A DNA stretch of 15,712 nucleotides from an uncultured Allobaculum sp. (lineage in GTDB: Bacteria > Bacillota_I > Bacilli_A > Erysipelotrichales > Erysipelotrichaceae), in contig CAOKFJ010000010.1 in the NCBI GenBank assembly GCA_948467695.1, positions 1 to 15,712 on the forward strand. The letters are read 5' to 3'. The translations under genes and the position numbers were made by a program. Positions 5,427 to 15,026 of this stretch are shown here, piece after piece (position 1 is the first letter of the stretch; each line of letters starts with the position of its first letter). The notes beneath the pieces were generated by a model, which was not told the origin of the DNA, ran no database searches, and worked only from the letters and a program-made list of their open reading frames with translations.

Positions 5427-7013
5427 ATGGAAAAACCAAAAACTCTGATTCAGTTCAGAAACATCCAGAAGAGCTTCGATGACCAGATTATCCTCAAGGG
5501 CATCGATCTCGATATTAATGAAAACGAATTTGTCACCCTGCTTGGTCCCTCGGGATGCGGCAAGACGACCCTTCTGCGAATACTGGGAGGATTTCTGCAG
5601 CAGGATGAAGGAGAAGTCTACATCGCCGGCAAGGAAATTTCCTCCCTGCCGCCGTATAAGCGCGAGCTCAACACGGTATTCCAGAAATACGCTCTGTTCC
5701 CGAACATGAACGTATACGAAAACATCGCGTTCGGTCTGCGCATTAAAAAAGTGTCCAACGACATCATCGAACAGAAGGTTATGCGTATGCTTCGTCTGAT
5801 CGGTCTTGAAGGCTATGAAAAACGCGAAATCACGCAGCTTTCCGGCGGTCAGCAGCAGCGTGTCGCCATTGCGCGCGCGCTGGTCAACGAACCCAATGTG
5901 CTTCTTCTCGACGAACCCCTTGGCGCGCTTGACCTCAAGCTGCGCAAAGAGATGCAGTACGAACTCAAACGCATTCAGCAGGAAGTCGGCATTACCTTTA
6001 TTTTTGTTACGCATGACCAGGAAGAAGCGCTGACCATGTCGGACAAGATCGTCATCATGAAAGAGGGCGAAATCCAGCAGATCGGTTCTCCGGTTGAAAT
6101 CTACAACGAACCGGTCAACGCGTATGTCGCCAACTTCATCGGCGAATCGAACATTCTGCCCGGCGTCATGGTTCACGATGAACTCGTGCGTTTTGACGAG
6201 CAGGATTTCGAGTGCGTCGACAAAGGCTACAAGCCGGGCGAACGCGTCGATGTCGTCATTCGTCCCGAAGATATCGACATTGTCGGCCCGAATGAAGGCA
6301 AGCTTAACGGCACGGTGGAATCCGTTCTGTTCAAAGGCATGCTTTACGAAATGATGGTCGAAACCAAACCCGGTACGCACGTTACCGTGAACATGCATAT
6401 TACCAGCGAAGATGCCAACCAGAATGACGATGGACACATCCACATTTCCGGAAACAGCTTCTACCTTGACGTTGAAGATATGGAAGGCATCGAGGAAAAA
6501 GATCTGATCGCCCGTGCCGATGCGCAGGCGTGGAACGATGAAACCGATGAACAGCTGTCGATCGAACATGTGGAAACCGATCTCGAAAACAAGATCGGCA
6601 CCTACTCCATCACCTTTACAACCGTAGGCGGTCTGTCGATCACCAAAACCATTCAGGTTATCGACCAGCAGATTGTCCGCGACGAGAAGCGAAACGAGGG
6701 TGTTTCGGCGTTCAACTTCTTCAAATCCAAAGACGAAATTCAGGAATCTGTCGCGCTCGACACCGATCTGAAAACATGGGCGAACGCGCAGGGATGGCGT
6801 CTGTCCAATGAGGACGAAGCGATTCCTCTGGATGTCACCTACGAATTTGATCCCGATAAAATCGCGCCGGGTGTCTATCCGGTAACGTTCTGGACAAAAG
6901 GCCGCGTTTTCAAAGTGCACACGACCGACTTTGTCGAAGAAGGCGCGCGTGTCGGTCTGCAGTTTGGCCCGGCTGACATTCACGTTATGGAAAAAGAGGG
7001 GTACACCTCATGA
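5427..7013 (+). CDS. potA: PotA, polyamine ABC importer ATPase, with a large Ig-like insertion in the C-terminal domain
   Basis: The N-terminal ~240 residues are a complete ABC ATPase: Walker A GPSGCGKT (40-47), Q-loop Gln86, signature LSGGQQQR (138-145), Walker B VLLLDEP (158-164), D-loop GALD (166-169) and switch His196. It should energise spermidine/putrescine uptake with PotB and PotC at the inner face of the membrane. The TOBE regulatory domain begins normally at about 270 ([11 protein letters not shown], 276-286) and finishes with [13 protein letters not shown] (509-521). Between them, residues ~323-498 are extra, because usual PotA proteins are about 350-380 residues and this one is 528. 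The insert holds two Ig-like units related to each other (see findings). An AAAGGA site precedes the ATG by about 7 bases. The stop overlaps the potB start by four bases, indicating translational coupling. Confidence 0.95.
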
Positions 7014-7846
7014 AGACATGGCGCAGACTCGCAATTCCCTATCTGATCTGGGGAAGCTGCATGCTCCTGCTCCCGATGCTTCTGATCGTGTTCTACTCCA
7101 TTGTGCAGCCCGGCAATGAAGTCACCACATTCAGCTTCACTCTGAACAGCTACGTGCGCTTCTTTACCGATCCAAACTTCCTGATGATTTTATGGCGCTC
7201 GCTTAGTGTGGCGCTCAAAACGACAGCGCTGTGTCTTTTGATCGGCTATCCGATCGCCTACTGGATCAGCCGCTGCTCCAAAAAGACGCAGAACCTCATG
7301 ATTCTGCTTATTACGCTCCCGATGTGGATCAACATGCTTGTGCGTACCTACGCCTGGATCGGACTTCTTTCCGAAGGCGGTCCGATTTCGATCGTGCTTG
7401 GATGGTTCGGCATTCACAACGTGGAGATTCTCTACACCGAAACCGCCGTGCTGATCGGCATGGTGTACAACTACCTGCCTTTCATGGTGCTTCAGATTCA
7501 CGCGTCGCTGACCAAAATGGATCCTTCGCTTGTCGAAGCGGCAAGCGACTTGGGCGCTTCGCCTTTCCAGACCTTCTGGCGCGTTATTTTCCCGCTTTCC
7601 GTACCGGGCGTAATTTCCGGCATCACGCTTGTGTTCCTTCCGGCGATTTCCGCCTTCTTCATTCCGAAACTGCTTGGCGGCGGCGGATGGTTCCTGATCG
7701 GAAATGTCATCGAGAACCAGTTCATCACTGTCGGTGAATGGAACTTCGGTTCAGCGATCTCCGTTATCATGGCGCTGATCATGATGCTTCTGATGGGTCT
7801 CGTGCGCAGAGCTGACCGCAAAGGCGCCAAGGAGGCGAAGGCATGA
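7010..7846 (+). CDS. potB: PotB, polyamine ABC importer permease
   Basis: This 278-residue integral membrane protein has about six transmembrane helices. The family EAA loop (residues 176-200, [20 protein letters not shown] and following) docks the ATPase. It forms the translocation pore together with the PotC part of the next gene. Identity as PotB rests on the order ATPase-permease-permease-binding protein, on a long first periplasmic-side loop after helix 1, and on the [14 protein letters not shown] segment (103-116) typical of PotB. The ATG overlaps the potA stop and its own stop overlaps the next start (ATGA at both junctions), so the three transporter genes are translationally coupled and made in similar amounts. 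Confidence 0.94.
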
Positions 7847-9768
7847 AACAGAAACAGGGCATGAATAAAAGACGCCCCTTTGGCGCTACCCTGACTACCC
7901 TGATGATGATCTTCTTCTATCTGCCGATCATCTTCATGGTTGTCTTCTCCTTCAACAGTTCCAAATCGCTGACGCACTTTACCGGCTTCTCGCTTCGCTG
8001 GTATGAGCAGATGTTCGCTTCGCACGACATGATGAACTCGCTGTATGTGACGATAATCATCGCGGTGCTGGCGACTCTGATTTCAACCATTGTCGGCACC
8101 CTGACCGCCATTGGTCTTCGCTATTCCAAAAAACTTGTCCGCGCCTATGTGACGCAGATCAATGACCTGCCGATGATGAACCCGGAAATTGTGACCGCGA
8201 TCGGTCTGATGCTTCTGTTCATCACGTTCCATATCGAACGCGGATTCACCACGCTGCTTCTGGCGCATATCGCCTTCTGCATTCCCTACGTCATGCTTTC
8301 CGTTATGCCGAAACTGCGTCAGCTCGATCCAAACCTTGCCGATGCGGCGATGGACCTTGGCGCGACGCCGTTTCAGACGCTGACCAAAGTCATCGTGCCG
8401 GAAATCATGCCGGGTATTGTCTCGGGCGCGATTATCGCGTTTACGATGAGTTTCGATGACTTCATCATTTCGTACTTCGCGACCGGGAAAGGCGTGAAAA
8501 ACCTTTCGATCATGGTCTACACCATGGCTAAGCGTGTAAATCCCTCGATCAACGCGATTTCGACTCTGCTTGTCGCGCTGATCACGGTGATTCTGCTTGC
8601 GGTCAATATCGTTCCGGTTATCCGCAAAAAGATCGCGGAAAAACACCAGAACGATCCGACTTACTCTCCCGCACCGCGCAAACATACCGCGCGCAACACG
8701 CTCATATTCGCTCTTGTGGGCGCAGCCGCAGCGTGCCTGATCTTCTTCCGTCCCTCCACCGGCACACAGCCATTTGCGGGACAGGTTCTCCATCTGTATC
8801 TGCCGGGCGAATACATTTCCGATGAAATGCTTTCGAACTTCGAACAGCAGACCGGCGCCGAGGTTGTGGTCGACAACTTCGATTCCAACGAACAGATGTA
8901 CATCAAGGTCGCCAACGGCGAATCGTTTGATGTTCTGATTCCCTCGGACTATATGATTCAGCGCCTGATCGAAGAAGACCTGCTTCTTAAACTCGATCCC
9001 GCCAAAGTCGATGAGGCGATGGTGCAGATCGATGACAAAGTGCTCGATATGGCGTACGATCCGGGCAACCAGTACTCCGTGCCGTACTTCTGGGGCACTG
9101 TGGGCATTGTCTACGACAAAAACAAAGTGTCGCAGGAAGATCTTGAAAAAGACGGATGGGCGATCTTCGCCGATCCGAAATACAAAGGCGACATTTACCT
9201 GTACGACAGCGAACGCGATCAGTTCATGTCCGCGCTCAAGAGCCTGGGCTACTCGATGAATACATCGGATCCCGAAGAGCTCAAACAGGCGTACGAATGG
9301 CTTGAAAACATCGTCAAAACGATGGAGCCGGAAATCGTCACCGACGAAATCATCGACAACATGGCAAACGCCCGTAAAGCGCTTGGCATGATCTACTCGG
9401 GCGATGCGACCTACGTCATGCAGGAAAACGACCAGATGGGCTACTATCTGCCTGAAGAAGGCACGAATATCTGGACCGACGCCATGTGCATTCCCAAGAG
9501 CGCGCAGAACCCTGAACTCGCCTACGAATTCATCAACTATGCCGCTTCCTACGAAGCGCAGATGATCAACTCTCTGTATGTCGGCTATACTGCCGCCAAC
9601 AAGGAGGTTGAAGATGAACTTGCGGCAAGCGAGTTCGAAGGTCTCGATTCCTACATTCCGCGTTCGGGAAATGCGCTCGATGAAGTCTTCGAGTACAATC
9701 CCGACAGCCGCAAAGCGATTGCGGAATACTGGAGCCGCGTTAAAGTCGTTGCTTCCAACAGCCGCTAG
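7843..9768 (+). CDS. potC: PotC-PotD fusion: polyamine permease joined to its substrate-binding domain
   Basis: This 641-residue protein has residues ~1-268 equivalent to PotC, with about six membrane helices and the EAA loop at 168-190 (DAAMDLGATPFQTLTKVIVP). A charged cytoplasmic linker (~261-284) leads to a seventh helix (about 285-302, NTLIFALVGAAAACLIFF). Residues ~312-641 are a full PotD-type binding protein: the PSDYMIQRL segment near 367, LYDSERDQF near 453-461 and IWTDAMCIP at 543-551. In E. coli PotD the matching W-x-D holds the polyamine. The seventh helix places the binding domain outside the cell, so no lipobox or separate PotD gene is needed, and none is present. A strong AAGGAGG site lies 7 bases before the ATG, inside potB. 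Similar permease/binding-protein fusions are known in other importer families. Spermidine versus putrescine preference cannot be read from sequence alone. Confidence 0.94.
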   Translation: MKQKQGMNKRRPFGATLTTLMMIFFYLPIIFMVVFSFNSSKSLTHFTGFSLRWYEQMFASHDMMNSLYVTIIIAVLATLISTIVGTLTAIGLRYSKKLVRAYVTQINDLPMMNPEIVTAIGLMLLFITFHIERGFTTLLLAHIAFCIPYVMLSVMPKLRQLDPNLADAAMDLGATPFQTLTKVIVPEIMPGIVSGAIIAFTMSFDDFIISYFATGKGVKNLSIMVYTMAKRVNPSINAISTLLVALITVILLAVNIVPVIRKKIAEKHQNDPTYSPAPRKHTARNTLIFALVGAAAACLIFFRPSTGTQPFAGQVLHLYLPGEYISDEMLSNFEQQTGAEVVVDNFDSNEQMYIKVANGESFDVLIPSDYMIQRLIEEDLLLKLDPAKVDEAMVQIDDKVLDMAYDPGNQYSVPYFWGTVGIVYDKNKVSQEDLEKDGWAIFADPKYKGDIYLYDSERDQFMSALKSLGYSMNTSDPEELKQAYEWLENIVKTMEPEIVTDEIIDNMANARKALGMIYSGDATYVMQENDQMGYYLPEEGTNIWTDAMCIPKSAQNPELAYEFINYAASYEAQMINSLYVGYTAANKEVEDELAASEFEGLDSYIPRSGNALDEVFEYNPDSRKAIAEYWSRVKVVASNSR

Positions 9769-11734: not shown

Positions 11735-11757
11735 GCATACAGGAAAGGAGAAGATGA

Positions 11758-14700
11758 ATGGAAAAGAAAACTTTTGATGTCTCCGGCATGACATGCGCCG
11801 CCTGCGAAGCGGCTGTCACACGCGCTGTTTCCAAACTGGATGGCGTTGAGCAGGCAGACGTCTCTCTTCTTGCGCAGGATATGAAAGTCGAATTCGATCC
11901 TGCCAAAGTCACCCCGCAGAAAATCGAAGAAGCGGTAAAGCAGGCCGGATATGCCGCAAGCCTGCAGACACCTCCAGATGCGGCTCATAAAGAAACCGTC
12001 GCGGATATATGGGCAAAGCGCAGCGAGCGCATTCGAAACGAATCCGAACAGAAAAAGAAAAAGCTGATCGCTTCGCTGATTCTTCTTGCCGTTCTGATGT
12101 GCTTTTCGATGCTTCCCATGCTTGGCGTTTTCACCTTTTTGATGGATATGGAATGGATGATGGTTGATGCGACGGTGCAGATGTTCATCGCCACGCTCAT
12201 TCTCTTTATTCAGAAAGATTTCTTTACGCATGGCTTCAAGACACTGTTTCACGGCAGTCCGAATATGGACACCCTTGTCGCGGTCGGCTCTTCCGTGTCG
12301 TTTATCTACGGATTCTATGGTCTGATGCTCATGGCGTACGGCTATGGCGTCATGGACCATACGCTGATTCATAACGGTATGAACGCGCTCTATTTTGAAA
12401 GCGCGGCGATGATCGTGACACTGGTTTCGCTGGGCAAATACCTCGAAGCGAGATCCAAATCCAAAACCGGTGACGCGCTGGCTAAACTGGTCAGTCTCGC
12501 GCCGAAAACCGCGCTGGTTAAACGCGGCGCGGATTTTGTCGAAGTGCCGGCTGAAGATGTGCGCGCCGGCGATCTGGTCAAGATTGTTCCCGGCGCTAGC
12601 ATTCCTGTTGACGGTATTGTAAAAGAGGGCACAGGCACCCTGGATCAGTCGGCGATTACCGGCGAGTCGATGCCGGTTGAAAAGGCCGAGGGCGATTCGG
12701 TGATGTCGGCTTCGACCAACCTGAACGGCTCGTTTGTGATGGAAGCGACTAAGGTCGGTTCCGATACCACACTTGCGCAGATCATTACACTTGTCGACGA
12801 AGCCGGAAACTCCAAAGCGCCGATTGCGCGTCTGGCGGACAAAGTCTCCGGTGTCTTTGTGCCTACGGTTCTGGCGCTGTCTTTGCTGACGCTTGCCGGA
12901 TGGCTGATCGCCGGCAAAGATATCGGCTTCGCGCTCAACTGCGCGATTTCCGTTCTTGTTATTTCGTGCCCGTGCGCGCTTGGTCTGGCGACACCGCTGG
13001 CGATTATGGTCGCTACCGGAAAAGCCGCGCAGTATGGCATTCTGGTCAAATCCGCGAGCGCGCTCGAGACGCTGGCTAAAGTCAATACGGTCGTTCTCGA
13101 CAAAACCGGAACCATTACGCAGGGAAAACCGAGTGTTGTCTCGATGACCCTCTTCAACCGCGACTTCGATCGCGAGCGTTTTCTCTCGATTGCAGCGGCT
13201 GCGGAATCCGGATCGGAACATCCGCTCGCTAAAGCCGTTCTTGAAGAAGCTTCCAAAGAAAAACTTGTTCTGCCGGCAGTCTCCAGTTTCAAAGCGTTTG
13301 GCGGAAAAGGACTGGAAGCGACAGTCGATGGAATTCATGTGCAGGCGGGAAACGCCGTGTTCATGGAACAGGAAGGCATTGTGCTTTCCGAGAATGCGCG
13401 CAAAGCCGCGCAGGATGTTGCCGATCTTGGCGGAACACCTTTGTTCTTCGCTTTTGACGGACGTCTTTGCGGACTGATCGGCGCGGCAGATGAAGTGCGT
13501 GCCACTTCGCGCGCGGCGATCGCGAGACTTCGCAAAGAAGGCGTCGATGTCATCATGCTCACCGGAGACAACGCCCGCACCGCGAAAGCCATTGCGGCCA
13601 ATCTGGATGTCAGCGATGTAATCTCCGATGTTCTGCCTGCGGACAAGGAATCTGTCATTCGCAAACTGCAGGATGAAGGCAAACTGACCGTCATGGTCGG
13701 CGATGGCATCAACGATGCGCCGGCGCTGACAAGAGCCGATGTCGGCATCGCGGTAAAATCCGGAACGGATATCGCAATGGAATCCGCCGATATTGTCCTG
13801 ATGAAAAACAATCTGATGGATGTCGTGACAGCGATCGAGCTTTCGCGCTCCACCATTCGAAATATCAAAGAAAACCTCTTCTGGGCTTTCTTCTACAACT
13901 GCCTGGGCATTCCTCTGGCGATGGGCCTGTTCTACCCGTTCAATGGCTGGCTGCTCAACCCGATGATCGGCGCGGCTGCCATGTCCTTCTCGTCCGTGAC
14001 TGTCTGCCTCAACGCGCTGCGTCTGCGTTTCTTCAAGCCGGCTAAAGCTGACGTGCAGGCAGAAAAAGCGGATGAAAACGCCGTTGGTGAAAAAACGGTA
14101 AAATGCACGGAAATGTTTGAAGATCCTGCCAAAACATCTGTTTCGCCAACAGACGGCATGGTCAGAATTCCCGTCTTCGGACCGGTGAACAGCACATGCA
14201 AAAAGAAAGCTTCCAATGAAGCGATTGAAAAAGCAGAAACCGCGGCTCCTGTCTCCAAACCGGATGCAGGCAATACGCCCGCTTTTGCGCAGACGACGCT
14301 GTTCCATGTAAATGGCATGATGTGCGCGCACTGTCAGGCGCATGTCACACAGGCGCTTGAAGCGCTTGAAGGTGTAAAAGAGGTTATTGTCTCTCTCGAG
14401 AACAATGATGCCCGCGTATGTTCCGATCGTCCCATCGACTTGCAGGTATTCAAAAACGCGATTGAAGATGCCGGCTATGAAGTCAAAGCCGATACACCAT
14501 CGGTTATCGCCAAAGCAAAATCTTCAGCCGCTCTTTCGCAGCAGCATGTGGATGAAATGCTGTTTGCATTGCGCGATCAGTACGACGGCATGAACTGGAT
14601 GATCTGGAACAATGCCGATCGCATGCTTGCCTGCAAAGGCGAAAATATTCCTTCACAGACCGAACTCGAGGCATATCTTGAAGAAAGCATTGCCTCTGAT

Positions 14701-14931
14701 GACGTAAATGCAGAGAAAGGAGGTGCGCCCATGACTCTGAAAATTGATGGCATGTCCTGCATGCACTGCGCAGCACGCGTAGAAAAAGCGCTGCTTGGCG
14801 TAGATGGTGTCAAAACCGCTAAAGTCGACCTCGACAACGCTTCCGCTACCGTAACTGGTGACAACCTCGATGCAGCGGCTCTTGCCAAAGCAGTAACCGC
14901 AGCCGGTTATTCCGTAAGCGCAATTGACTAG
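11758..14931 (+). CDS. copA: CopA, Cu(I)-exporting P1B-type ATPase with one N-terminal and two C-terminal HMA domains
   Basis: This 1057-residue protein pumps Cu(I) out of the cytoplasm. HMA domain 1 is at 4-70 with Cys13/Cys16 (MTCAAC). The ATPase core carries TGES (301-304), the metal-site CPC (404-406), phosphorylation Asp448 in DKTGT, HP (488-489) and GDGINDAP (648-655). The last helices have YN (713-714) and M-x-x-S-S (742-746), the Cu(I)-specific P1B-1 signature. Typical Firmicute CopA ends soon after about residue 760. Here a hydrophilic linker (761-845, with Cys783 and Cys814) leads to HMA2 (847-910, Cys856/Cys859), an unrecognised ~80-residue segment and HMA3 (992-1057, Cys1001/Cys1004). 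AGGAAAGGAG lies 7 bases before the ATG; an ATG at 11754 is out of frame and short. No copper regulator is adjacent. Confidence 0.96.
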   Translation: MEKKTFDVSGMTCAACEAAVTRAVSKLDGVEQADVSLLAQDMKVEFDPAKVTPQKIEEAVKQAGYAASLQTPPDAAHKETVADIWAKRSERIRNESEQKKKKLIASLILLAVLMCFSMLPMLGVFTFLMDMEWMMVDATVQMFIATLILFIQKDFFTHGFKTLFHGSPNMDTLVAVGSSVSFIYGFYGLMLMAYGYGVMDHTLIHNGMNALYFESAAMIVTLVSLGKYLEARSKSKTGDALAKLVSLAPKTALVKRGADFVEVPAEDVRAGDLVKIVPGASIPVDGIVKEGTGTLDQSAITGESMPVEKAEGDSVMSASTNLNGSFVMEATKVGSDTTLAQIITLVDEAGNSKAPIARLADKVSGVFVPTVLALSLLTLAGWLIAGKDIGFALNCAISVLVISCPCALGLATPLAIMVATGKAAQYGILVKSASALETLAKVNTVVLDKTGTITQGKPSVVSMTLFNRDFDRERFLSIAAAAESGSEHPLAKAVLEEASKEKLVLPAVSSFKAFGGKGLEATVDGIHVQAGNAVFMEQEGIVLSENARKAAQDVADLGGTPLFFAFDGRLCGLIGAADEVRATSRAAIARLRKEGVDVIMLTGDNARTAKAIAANLDVSDVISDVLPADKESVIRKLQDEGKLTVMVGDGINDAPALTRADVGIAVKSGTDIAMESADIVLMKNNLMDVVTAIELSRSTIRNIKENLFWAFFYNCLGIPLAMGLFYPFNGWLLNPMIGAAAMSFSSVTVCLNALRLRFFKPAKADVQAEKADENAVGEKTVKCTEMFEDPAKTSVSPTDGMVRIPVFGPVNSTCKKKASNEAIEKAETAAPVSKPDAGNTPAFAQTTLFHVNGMMCAHCQAHVTQALEALEGVKEVIVSLENNDARVCSDRPIDLQVFKNAIEDAGYEVKADTPSVIAKAKSSAALSQQHVDEMLFALRDQYDGMNWMIWNNADRMLACKGENIPSQTELEAYLEESIASDDVNAEKGGAPMTLKIDGMSCMHCAARVEKALLGVDGVKTAKVDLDNASATVTGDNLDAAALAKAVTAAGYSVSAID
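14714..14725 (+). promoter_or_regulatory. Internal Shine-Dalgarno sequence within copA
   Basis: AGAAAGGAGGTG sits 6-7 bases before the ATG at 14731. It also encodes the linker residues E-K-G-G of CopA. Its near-full complementarity to the 16S rRNA 3' end and correct spacing decide the nested chaperone start. Confidence 0.55.
14731..14931 (+). CDS. Possible nested CopZ-like copper chaperone made from an internal copA start
   Basis: An in-frame ATG at 14731 (Met992 of CopA) is preceded at 7 bases by AGAAAGGAGGTG (14714-14725), a stronger ribosome binding site than the one at the start of copA itself. Initiation here would give a 66-residue protein that is exactly one HMA domain: beta strand MTLKIDGMSC, the copper-binding MSCMHC (Cys10/Cys13 of the short form), and the usual VDGVKTAKVDL and AGYSV elements. 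Free CopZ chaperones are about 66-70 residues. The layout suggests an ancestral copA-copZ gene pair fused by loss of the copA stop codon, with the copZ start site kept. Whether it is still used is not shown by sequence. Confidence 0.5.
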   Translation: MTLKIDGMSCMHCAARVEKALLGVDGVKTAKVDLDNASATVTGDNLDAAALAKAVTAAGYSVSAID

Positions 14932-14972: not shown

Positions 14973-15026
14973 AACAAAGAAACGCGCCCGATTCCAAACG
15001 AAAGGAATCGGGCGCGTTTCTTTGTT
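14973..15026. terminator. Bidirectional terminator with a perfect 23-bp stem
   Basis: The 23 bases 14973-14995 are perfectly repeated in inverted orientation at 15004-15026, around an 8-base AAACGAAA loop. The stem core is CGCGCCCGATTCC, and both ends read TTTCTTTGTT on the outgoing strand. It lies about 40 bases after the copA stop and about 30 bases after the stop of the minus-strand gene at 15057. It therefore serves both converging transcripts. Confidence 0.9.

Follow-up and report, generated by a model that had tools for sequence, protein, structure and literature searches.

A predicted CopZ chaperone nested in frame at the 3' end of copA in Allobaculum and related Firmicutes

Escherichia coli reportedly makes a copper chaperone, CopA(Z), from copA by programmed -1 frameshifting, as Meydan and Drees are each said to have described in 2017. 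In the available parts of PMC7558416, PMC10187127 and PMC5009743, frameshifting on copA gives a 70-residue chaperone from the 5' segment of the gene. Two-polypeptide phage endolysins are encoded by single genes, which the available part of PMC9430671 describes as experimentally shown, and their two products may assemble.

The locus described here lies in a window of 15,712 nucleotides from an uncultured Allobaculum sp. (contig CAOKFJ010000010.1), the whole stretch of DNA that was analysed. The source assembly is a draft genome of 2.0 Mb that is 68% complete. Judged from the sequence, internal initiation on the copA mRNA very probably makes free CopZ. In the proposed mechanism copA and copZ, which are fused in one reading frame, yield two products. 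Ribosomes starting at 11758 would produce the CopA pump with a CopZ-like C-terminal domain, and other ribosomes on the same mRNA would bind an internal Shine-Dalgarno (SD) sequence at 14714-14725 and start at the ATG at 14731. The product of the second start would be a free CopZ chaperone of 66 residues that would bring Cu(I) to the CopA pump. We infer initiation in cells, a free and stable product, and copper delivery.

The copA gene and the reading frame nested in it

The copA gene (11758..14931, forward strand, as are all features of this locus described here) encodes a P1B-1 copper-exporting ATPase of 1057 amino acids, in which Pfam finds one N-terminal and two C-terminal HMA domains. The protein scores 592.5 bits against the NCBIfam model TIGR01511, for which the cut-off is 397, and this places it among the P1B-1 copper ATPases. 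Its own ribosome binding site, AAAGGAG, is seen in the sequence at 11744..11750. Profile matches locate the N-terminal HMA domain, with the motif MTCAAC, at 11770..11952 and the middle HMA domain, which is C-terminal and has the motif MMCAHC, at 14302..14481. The middle domain serves as an internal control, because the 25 residues preceding its motif contain no methionine. The linker between the middle and last HMA domains (14488..14713) has diverged in sequence within the genus, and a Pfam search of the 81 residues of CopA encoded by 14488-14730 gave no match. Downstream of the gene a hairpin of 20 pairs resembling an intrinsic terminator (14976..15023) would end the copA/copZ mRNA. Elsewhere in the window are a polyamine transporter of PotC-PotD type in which permease and substrate-binding protein are fused (7843-9768), and a PotA-like ATPase whose C-terminus carries a long extension (5427-7013).

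The internal SD sequence, AGAAAGGAGGTG, occupies 14714..14725. It is followed by a putative start codon at 14731..14733, proposed from the sequence and its conservation, which lies in the copA frame and encodes Met992 of the 1057 residues. The ATG is 5 nt from the end of AGAAAGGAGGTG and 7 nt from its GGAGG. The whole of AGAAAGGAGGTG is complementary to the 16S end GGATCACCTCCTTTCT of Allobaculum mucilyticum (G002), a genome of the same genus in which this 16S-end pattern occurs 15 times; the drafts G000, to which the window belongs, and G003 gave no match to it. The anti-SD duplex energy at ATG 14731 is -15.5 kcal/mol, compared with -9.0 at copA's own start. Among ten chosen coding sequences of the window it is the best of 146 in-frame internal ATGs, with the runner-up at -9.5, and also the best of 311 internal ATGs in all frames. 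When the six upstream codons are recoded by copA's own codon usage, -15.5 is reached with p = 0.0055. The mRNA fold around ATG 14731 is -13.2, no looser than at control methionines (median -13.5), so accessibility does not help the window's own site. Pooled over the 182 sites described below, the median fold is -2.9, compared with -13.5 for 1092 control methionines and -8.45 for 160 gene starts, and A-rich linkers explain part of this weak folding. An internal promoter is unsupported; one 9-of-12 match lies at 14652-14679, and 0.7 are expected by chance.

The nested copZ reading frame (14731..14931) is in frame with copA, shares its stop codon and encodes 66 amino acids including MSCMHC. The product matches positions 1-61 of the 62 in the Pfam HMA model with 65.6 bits, which is one complete HMA domain. 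MSCMHC conforms to MxCxHC, the signature of CopZ2-like chaperones according to the available part of PMC7558416. The predicted structure has a pLDDT of 97.2 and the order E-H-E-E-H-E, and the nearest solved structure to the model is that of the CopZ metallochaperone 6ff2 (TM 0.90). The sequence-only reading had an in-frame ATG with an SD at 14731 opening a CopZ-like domain of 66 residues, and the sequence, Pfam and the anti-SD energy all confirm it.

The best NCBIfam family for the 66-residue product is CopZ NF047957, at 80.5 bits, which is below the equivalog cut-off of 85. The CopZ_Bs model also matches the N-terminal (72.3 bits) and middle (63.7 bits) HMA domains, so the NCBIfam CopZ models cannot separate a chaperone from a pump domain. 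In tallies that include duplicates, CxHC is the motif of 90 of the 112 last domains and of 35 of the 40 middle C-terminal ones, and the 126 N-terminal motifs, mostly CAAC, CSAC and CASC, include no case of it. The C-terminal HMA domains are therefore CopZ2-like as a group, and the last one is distinguished by its start site, not by motif or family score. In a public protein set a predicted free protein of 66 residues (P0001, from 4 contigs) equals the A. mucilyticum product and begins at the same methionine; it adds little, since the contigs are short (the longest is 3219).

Conservation of the internal site among fused copA genes

Loci across the order were taken as the best-scoring ones; 228 of 315 genomes were matched and 128 copA reading frames were read, with none obtained for L087. 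A C-terminal HMA motif is present in 112 of the 128. Removal of duplicates and a frame-split gene (L012, L101 and L137 were dropped on one or other ground) left an order set of 109 fused genes. A methionine lies 4-25 residues ahead of the last HMA motif in 99 of these. The anti-SD energy at the 99 sites has a median of -10.3 and is -5.8 or lower in 97 and -8 or lower in 78, compared with 212 and 13 of 3114 control internal methionines from the same genes. The start sites of 107 copA genes in this set have a median of -9.3 and are indistinguishable from the internal sites (p = 0.13). Where a C-terminal HMA domain is not the last one, a methionine precedes it in 14 of 39 cases, and the energy is -8 or lower in 2.

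A second sample, rich in Clostridia, consisted of the 80 best-matching loci from named genomes, most of which are Clostridia according to their titles, and this choice favours fused genes. The energy is -5.8 or lower in 75 of its 79 fused genes, of which 4 repeat order-set genes, and in 252 of 1875 control methionines. In the pooled tally (L219, L241 and L252 being excluded as duplicates), an in-frame ATG with an SD before a C-terminal HMA domain is kept in 182 of 194 fused copA genes. This label is lenient; it takes the best methionine before any C-terminal HMA domain at a threshold of -5.8, which 7% (order) to 13% (Clostridia) of control methionines pass by chance. The ATG stands exactly 8 residues before the HMA motif in 126 of the 182. 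Two features of in-frame internal initiation are found here: an SD with an in-frame start codon marks the edge of a domain, and its position is conserved among homologues.

The sequence-only reading had made internal initiation depend on close homologues that keep the fusion also keeping the SD and ATG. This holds for the 182 and fails for the other 12. The pattern extends across the order and reaches Clostridia, beyond the scope of that reading.

Besides the 194 fused genes, the tally includes 21 copA genes followed within about 110 nt by the copZ motif of a separate gene, 22 with neither arrangement and 2 that are cut off. Evenly drawn samples of the class and phylum (the best 30 matches of each) gave 38 new loci, comprising 17 with separate copZ, 11 with neither, 9 fused with the site and 1 fused without it, which makes separate genes the commoner arrangement in the wider class.

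Within the genus, AAAGGAGG precedes the ATG in G000, G002 and G003 despite the divergence of the linker. The same-genus G004 (L009) has a weaker SD, GAAGGA, with an energy of -5.9. In four genes with tandem C-terminal HMA domains (L027, L030, L031 and L072) the site sits before the first of the two, so the predicted chaperone would have two domains. In G001 (L101 and L012), also of this genus, the CopZ domain is in another frame and its ATG overlaps a TGA. Since copA itself is split there into 600 and 523 amino acids, and the single contig of the assembly has a listed completeness of 58%, indel errors are likely; G001 does not enter the order-set and later counts.

Of the 12 fused genes without the site, two have a separate CopZ-like reading frame just downstream. 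In Ileibacterium valens (L036/G235) this copZ has its own SD and lies within about 200 nt, and in L246 it lies directly past the copA stop. Five more belong to one genus, g66 (L073, L074, L080, L093 and L099), in which a 65-codon HMA reading frame occurs elsewhere in all 5 genomes; the three that were read (L267-L269) are CopZ-like, with MMCQHC or MMCKHC. L113 is followed by a reading frame of CSMC type, a type also seen after site-bearing genes. L078 narrowly misses the threshold (-5.6), and no small HMA reading frame was found at this locus or at the loci of L160, L184 and L215. An MxCx[HN]C copZ lies just downstream of 2 of the 12 genes without the site and of 0 of the 182 with it.

Small reading frames matched within up to 2.5 kb of copA at 9 of the 182 site-bearing genes; 7 of these are HMA proteins and 2 are unrelated. 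The 7 directly follow copA and have CxMC or CCxC, none having MxCx[HN]C. At six loci (L083, L084, L085, L102, L110 and L131) the internal copZ is followed by a second small HMA reading frame, with CxMC, that begins at the copA stop codon or overlaps it, and one operon may therefore yield three HMA products.

A Pfam HMA search covered 35 site-bearing genomes, with complete match lists for 20 (G002, G003, G005, G013, G024, G032, G035, G036, G037, G041, G042, G046, G047, G050, G058, G059, G067, G071, G231 and G282). No free soluble MxCxHC protein was seen in these 20. Their small HMA reading frames are of DCANC/DCPNC-like types, with one ACPTC and one CxMC, the latter a free protein in G067. In ten of the 20 there is a 121-141-codon protein whose N-terminus is hydrophobic and whose HMA domain, in some cases with CxHC, comes after a pair of cysteines. 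Such a predicted membrane-anchored HMA family (L260, L261, L262, L290, L295 and L296-L301) is present in many site-bearing genomes. In G002 (92% complete) and G003 (98%) copA encodes three HMA domains, and each genome has in addition a single protein with DCPNC or DCPTC. For the incomplete genome of the window the matches are three in copA and a fourth, below the cut-off, in a 394-codon frame. G005 has a second, partial copA-like frame (L266, G005:C41), apart from its main copA, which ends in a Met-led CGHC domain. The internal CopZ is thus not always the sole small HMA protein, given the CxMC and CCxC reading frames, the G067 protein and the membrane-anchored proteins.

Selection at the internal site and alternative explanations

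A linker rich in lysine and glutamate could mimic an SD, and codon choice was therefore tested against each gene's own usage, with the duplicates L139-L142 excluded from these tests onwards. Glutamate at codon -4 is encoded by GAG in 101 of 129 cases (39.3 expected), or 104 of 133 (40.5 expected) in the full set of 182 genes. Glycine at the same codon is GGA in 30 of 31 (7.2 expected), and lysine at codon -5 is AAG in 80 of 109 (48.2 expected). The bias at codon -3 runs the opposite way, glutamate there being GAG in 12 of 84 (29.3 expected). Glutamate and lysine codons at -20 to -9 have no comparable excess, and at matched controls, which are other internal methionines of the same genes with glutamate at -4, GAG is used in 97 of 309 (96.0 expected). 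Thinning to less than 60% core identity left 34 genes, of which 31 have the site. In this set GAG encodes glutamate at codon -4 in 20 of 21 cases (5.7 expected), and in 27 of 31 genes no other in-frame methionine has as strong an SD (1.5 expected).

The presence of the SD can also be tested in a way that is not conditioned on a methionine. In 153 of the 194 fused genes the 35 codons that lead up to the HMA motif contain an AGGAG or GGAGG core. An in-frame ATG follows 4-13 nt past this core in 149 of the 153, compared with 27 of 742 cores elsewhere in copA, which indicates that SD and ATG are kept as a pair. Synonymous recoding gene by gene gave p < 0.05 in 31 of 107 genes; this test is weak because the amino acids that the SD imposes stay fixed, and the pooled codon test was used instead. 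The codon choices indicate that selection acts on nucleotides at the internal SD.

The alternative named in the sequence-only reading is that a recent fusion of copA and copZ left the SD and ATG behind and that neither is used any more. The 21 copA genes with a separate copZ just downstream fit this explanation, several of them having an evident SD before copZ (L097, L220, L221, L232 and L248), as does the absence of the site from 12 of the 194 fused genes. The fusion history in that reading is borne out by these relatives. The SD of the separate copZ in L097 and L220 (TAGGAGG) includes the copA stop TAG, and in L248 the copZ SD is inside copA and the copZ ATG overlaps the copA stop TGA. These three separate-gene relatives appear to be intermediates showing how the fusion can arise, and since several of the separate downstream copZ genes have an SD, the internal site plausibly descends from the copZ ribosome binding site.

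The fusion does not appear to be recent. In a FastTree tree of 239 CopA cores the fused or separate label needs at least 7 changes. With midpoint rooting, the largest clades without separate copZ contain 58, 28, 26, 23 and 22 genes (support 90, 95, 99, 99 and 47 respectively), with minimum core identities of 0.44-0.57. At such identities unconstrained linker sites should be randomised, yet the site is kept in 182 of 194 genes. The synonymous constraint at the SD also stands against an unused remnant, as does the distribution of downstream MxCx[HN]C genes, found beside 2 of the 12 genes without the site and none of those with it. A disused site is thus very unlikely. Internal initiation is favoured over it by the retention of SD and ATG, the synonymous constraint, which control methionines do not have, and the diverged fused clades.

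A second alternative is that the internal SD acts on elongating ribosomes and not in initiation, through pausing or through programmed frameshifting that sheds the tail. The linkers are A-rich, and in other genes an SD-like sequence ahead of a slippery site promotes frameshifting. An in-frame X_XXY_YYZ heptamer occurs between -9 and +24 of the ATG in 8 of the 182 genes only, and programmed frameshifting of the E. coli CopA(Z) type finds no support there. Pausing or frameshifting needs no ATG, and the 149 of 153 genes that have one in frame after the SD core therefore speak against an elongation effect, which we consider most improbable.

The C-terminal HMA domain might instead do no more than bind metal as a fixed part of the pump, like that of Archaeoglobus fulgidus CopA, with the SD a by-product of a linker rich in lysine and glutamate; such C-terminal domains of CopA are known (Agarwal 2010, as cited in the available part of PMC7558416) and both residues are common in linkers, but the confinement of codon bias to the SD codons, its absence from matched control methionines and its reversal for glutamate at -3 make this hardly credible.

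Significance and comparison with known systems

The preferred reading, internal initiation within copA, would have consequences beyond the window. In a large part of the gut Firmicutes, namely the Allobaculum order and many Clostridia, a fused copA-copZ gene is likely to be the source, by internal initiation, of the main or even the sole soluble MxCxHC copper chaperone, for which there would be no separate gene. This arrangement would be old and strongly selected, would place pump and chaperone on one mRNA, where the internal SD would set their ratio, and would be an independent counterpart of E. coli CopA(Z). Gene finders normally give one protein per stop codon, so the chaperone would be missing from many annotations of gut bacteria, and annotated genomes would wrongly look as if they had no CopZ. 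The sites across related genes form a natural series of SD strengths. Among the matches listed in openly licensed PMC literature, considered by title and the start of the abstract, there was no published report of CopZ internal initiation within copA.

The locus resembles the separate copA-copZ pairs of other Bacilli (L220 and L248) in gene order and in having a CopZ-like domain with its own SD and ATG. It differs in that their frames are divided by a stop codon or a frame change, neither of which is present in the window's copA. An HMA domain at the C-terminus is shared with Archaeoglobus fulgidus CopA, whose C-terminal metal-binding domain is presumably structure 3fry; no claim of free production of that domain was seen in the literature consulted.

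As the two-polypeptide endolysins are described in the available part of PMC9430671, they share with the nested copZ an in-frame internal start at a domain edge, a common stop codon and the production of the C-terminal part alone. The endolysins are phage lysis enzymes established by experiment, and the present case concerns a bacterial copper pump and its chaperone, proposed from sequence.

The likeness to E. coli CopA(Z) is that one gene would give both a copper pump and a separate single-domain chaperone. The routes differ, since E. coli CopA(Z), in the parts of the sources available, comes from the 5' segment by a frameshift, and the chaperone proposed here would come from the 3' end by in-frame internal initiation. 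If this is true, the production of pump and chaperone from one gene evolved by two different translational routes, and this points to the importance of keeping them together.
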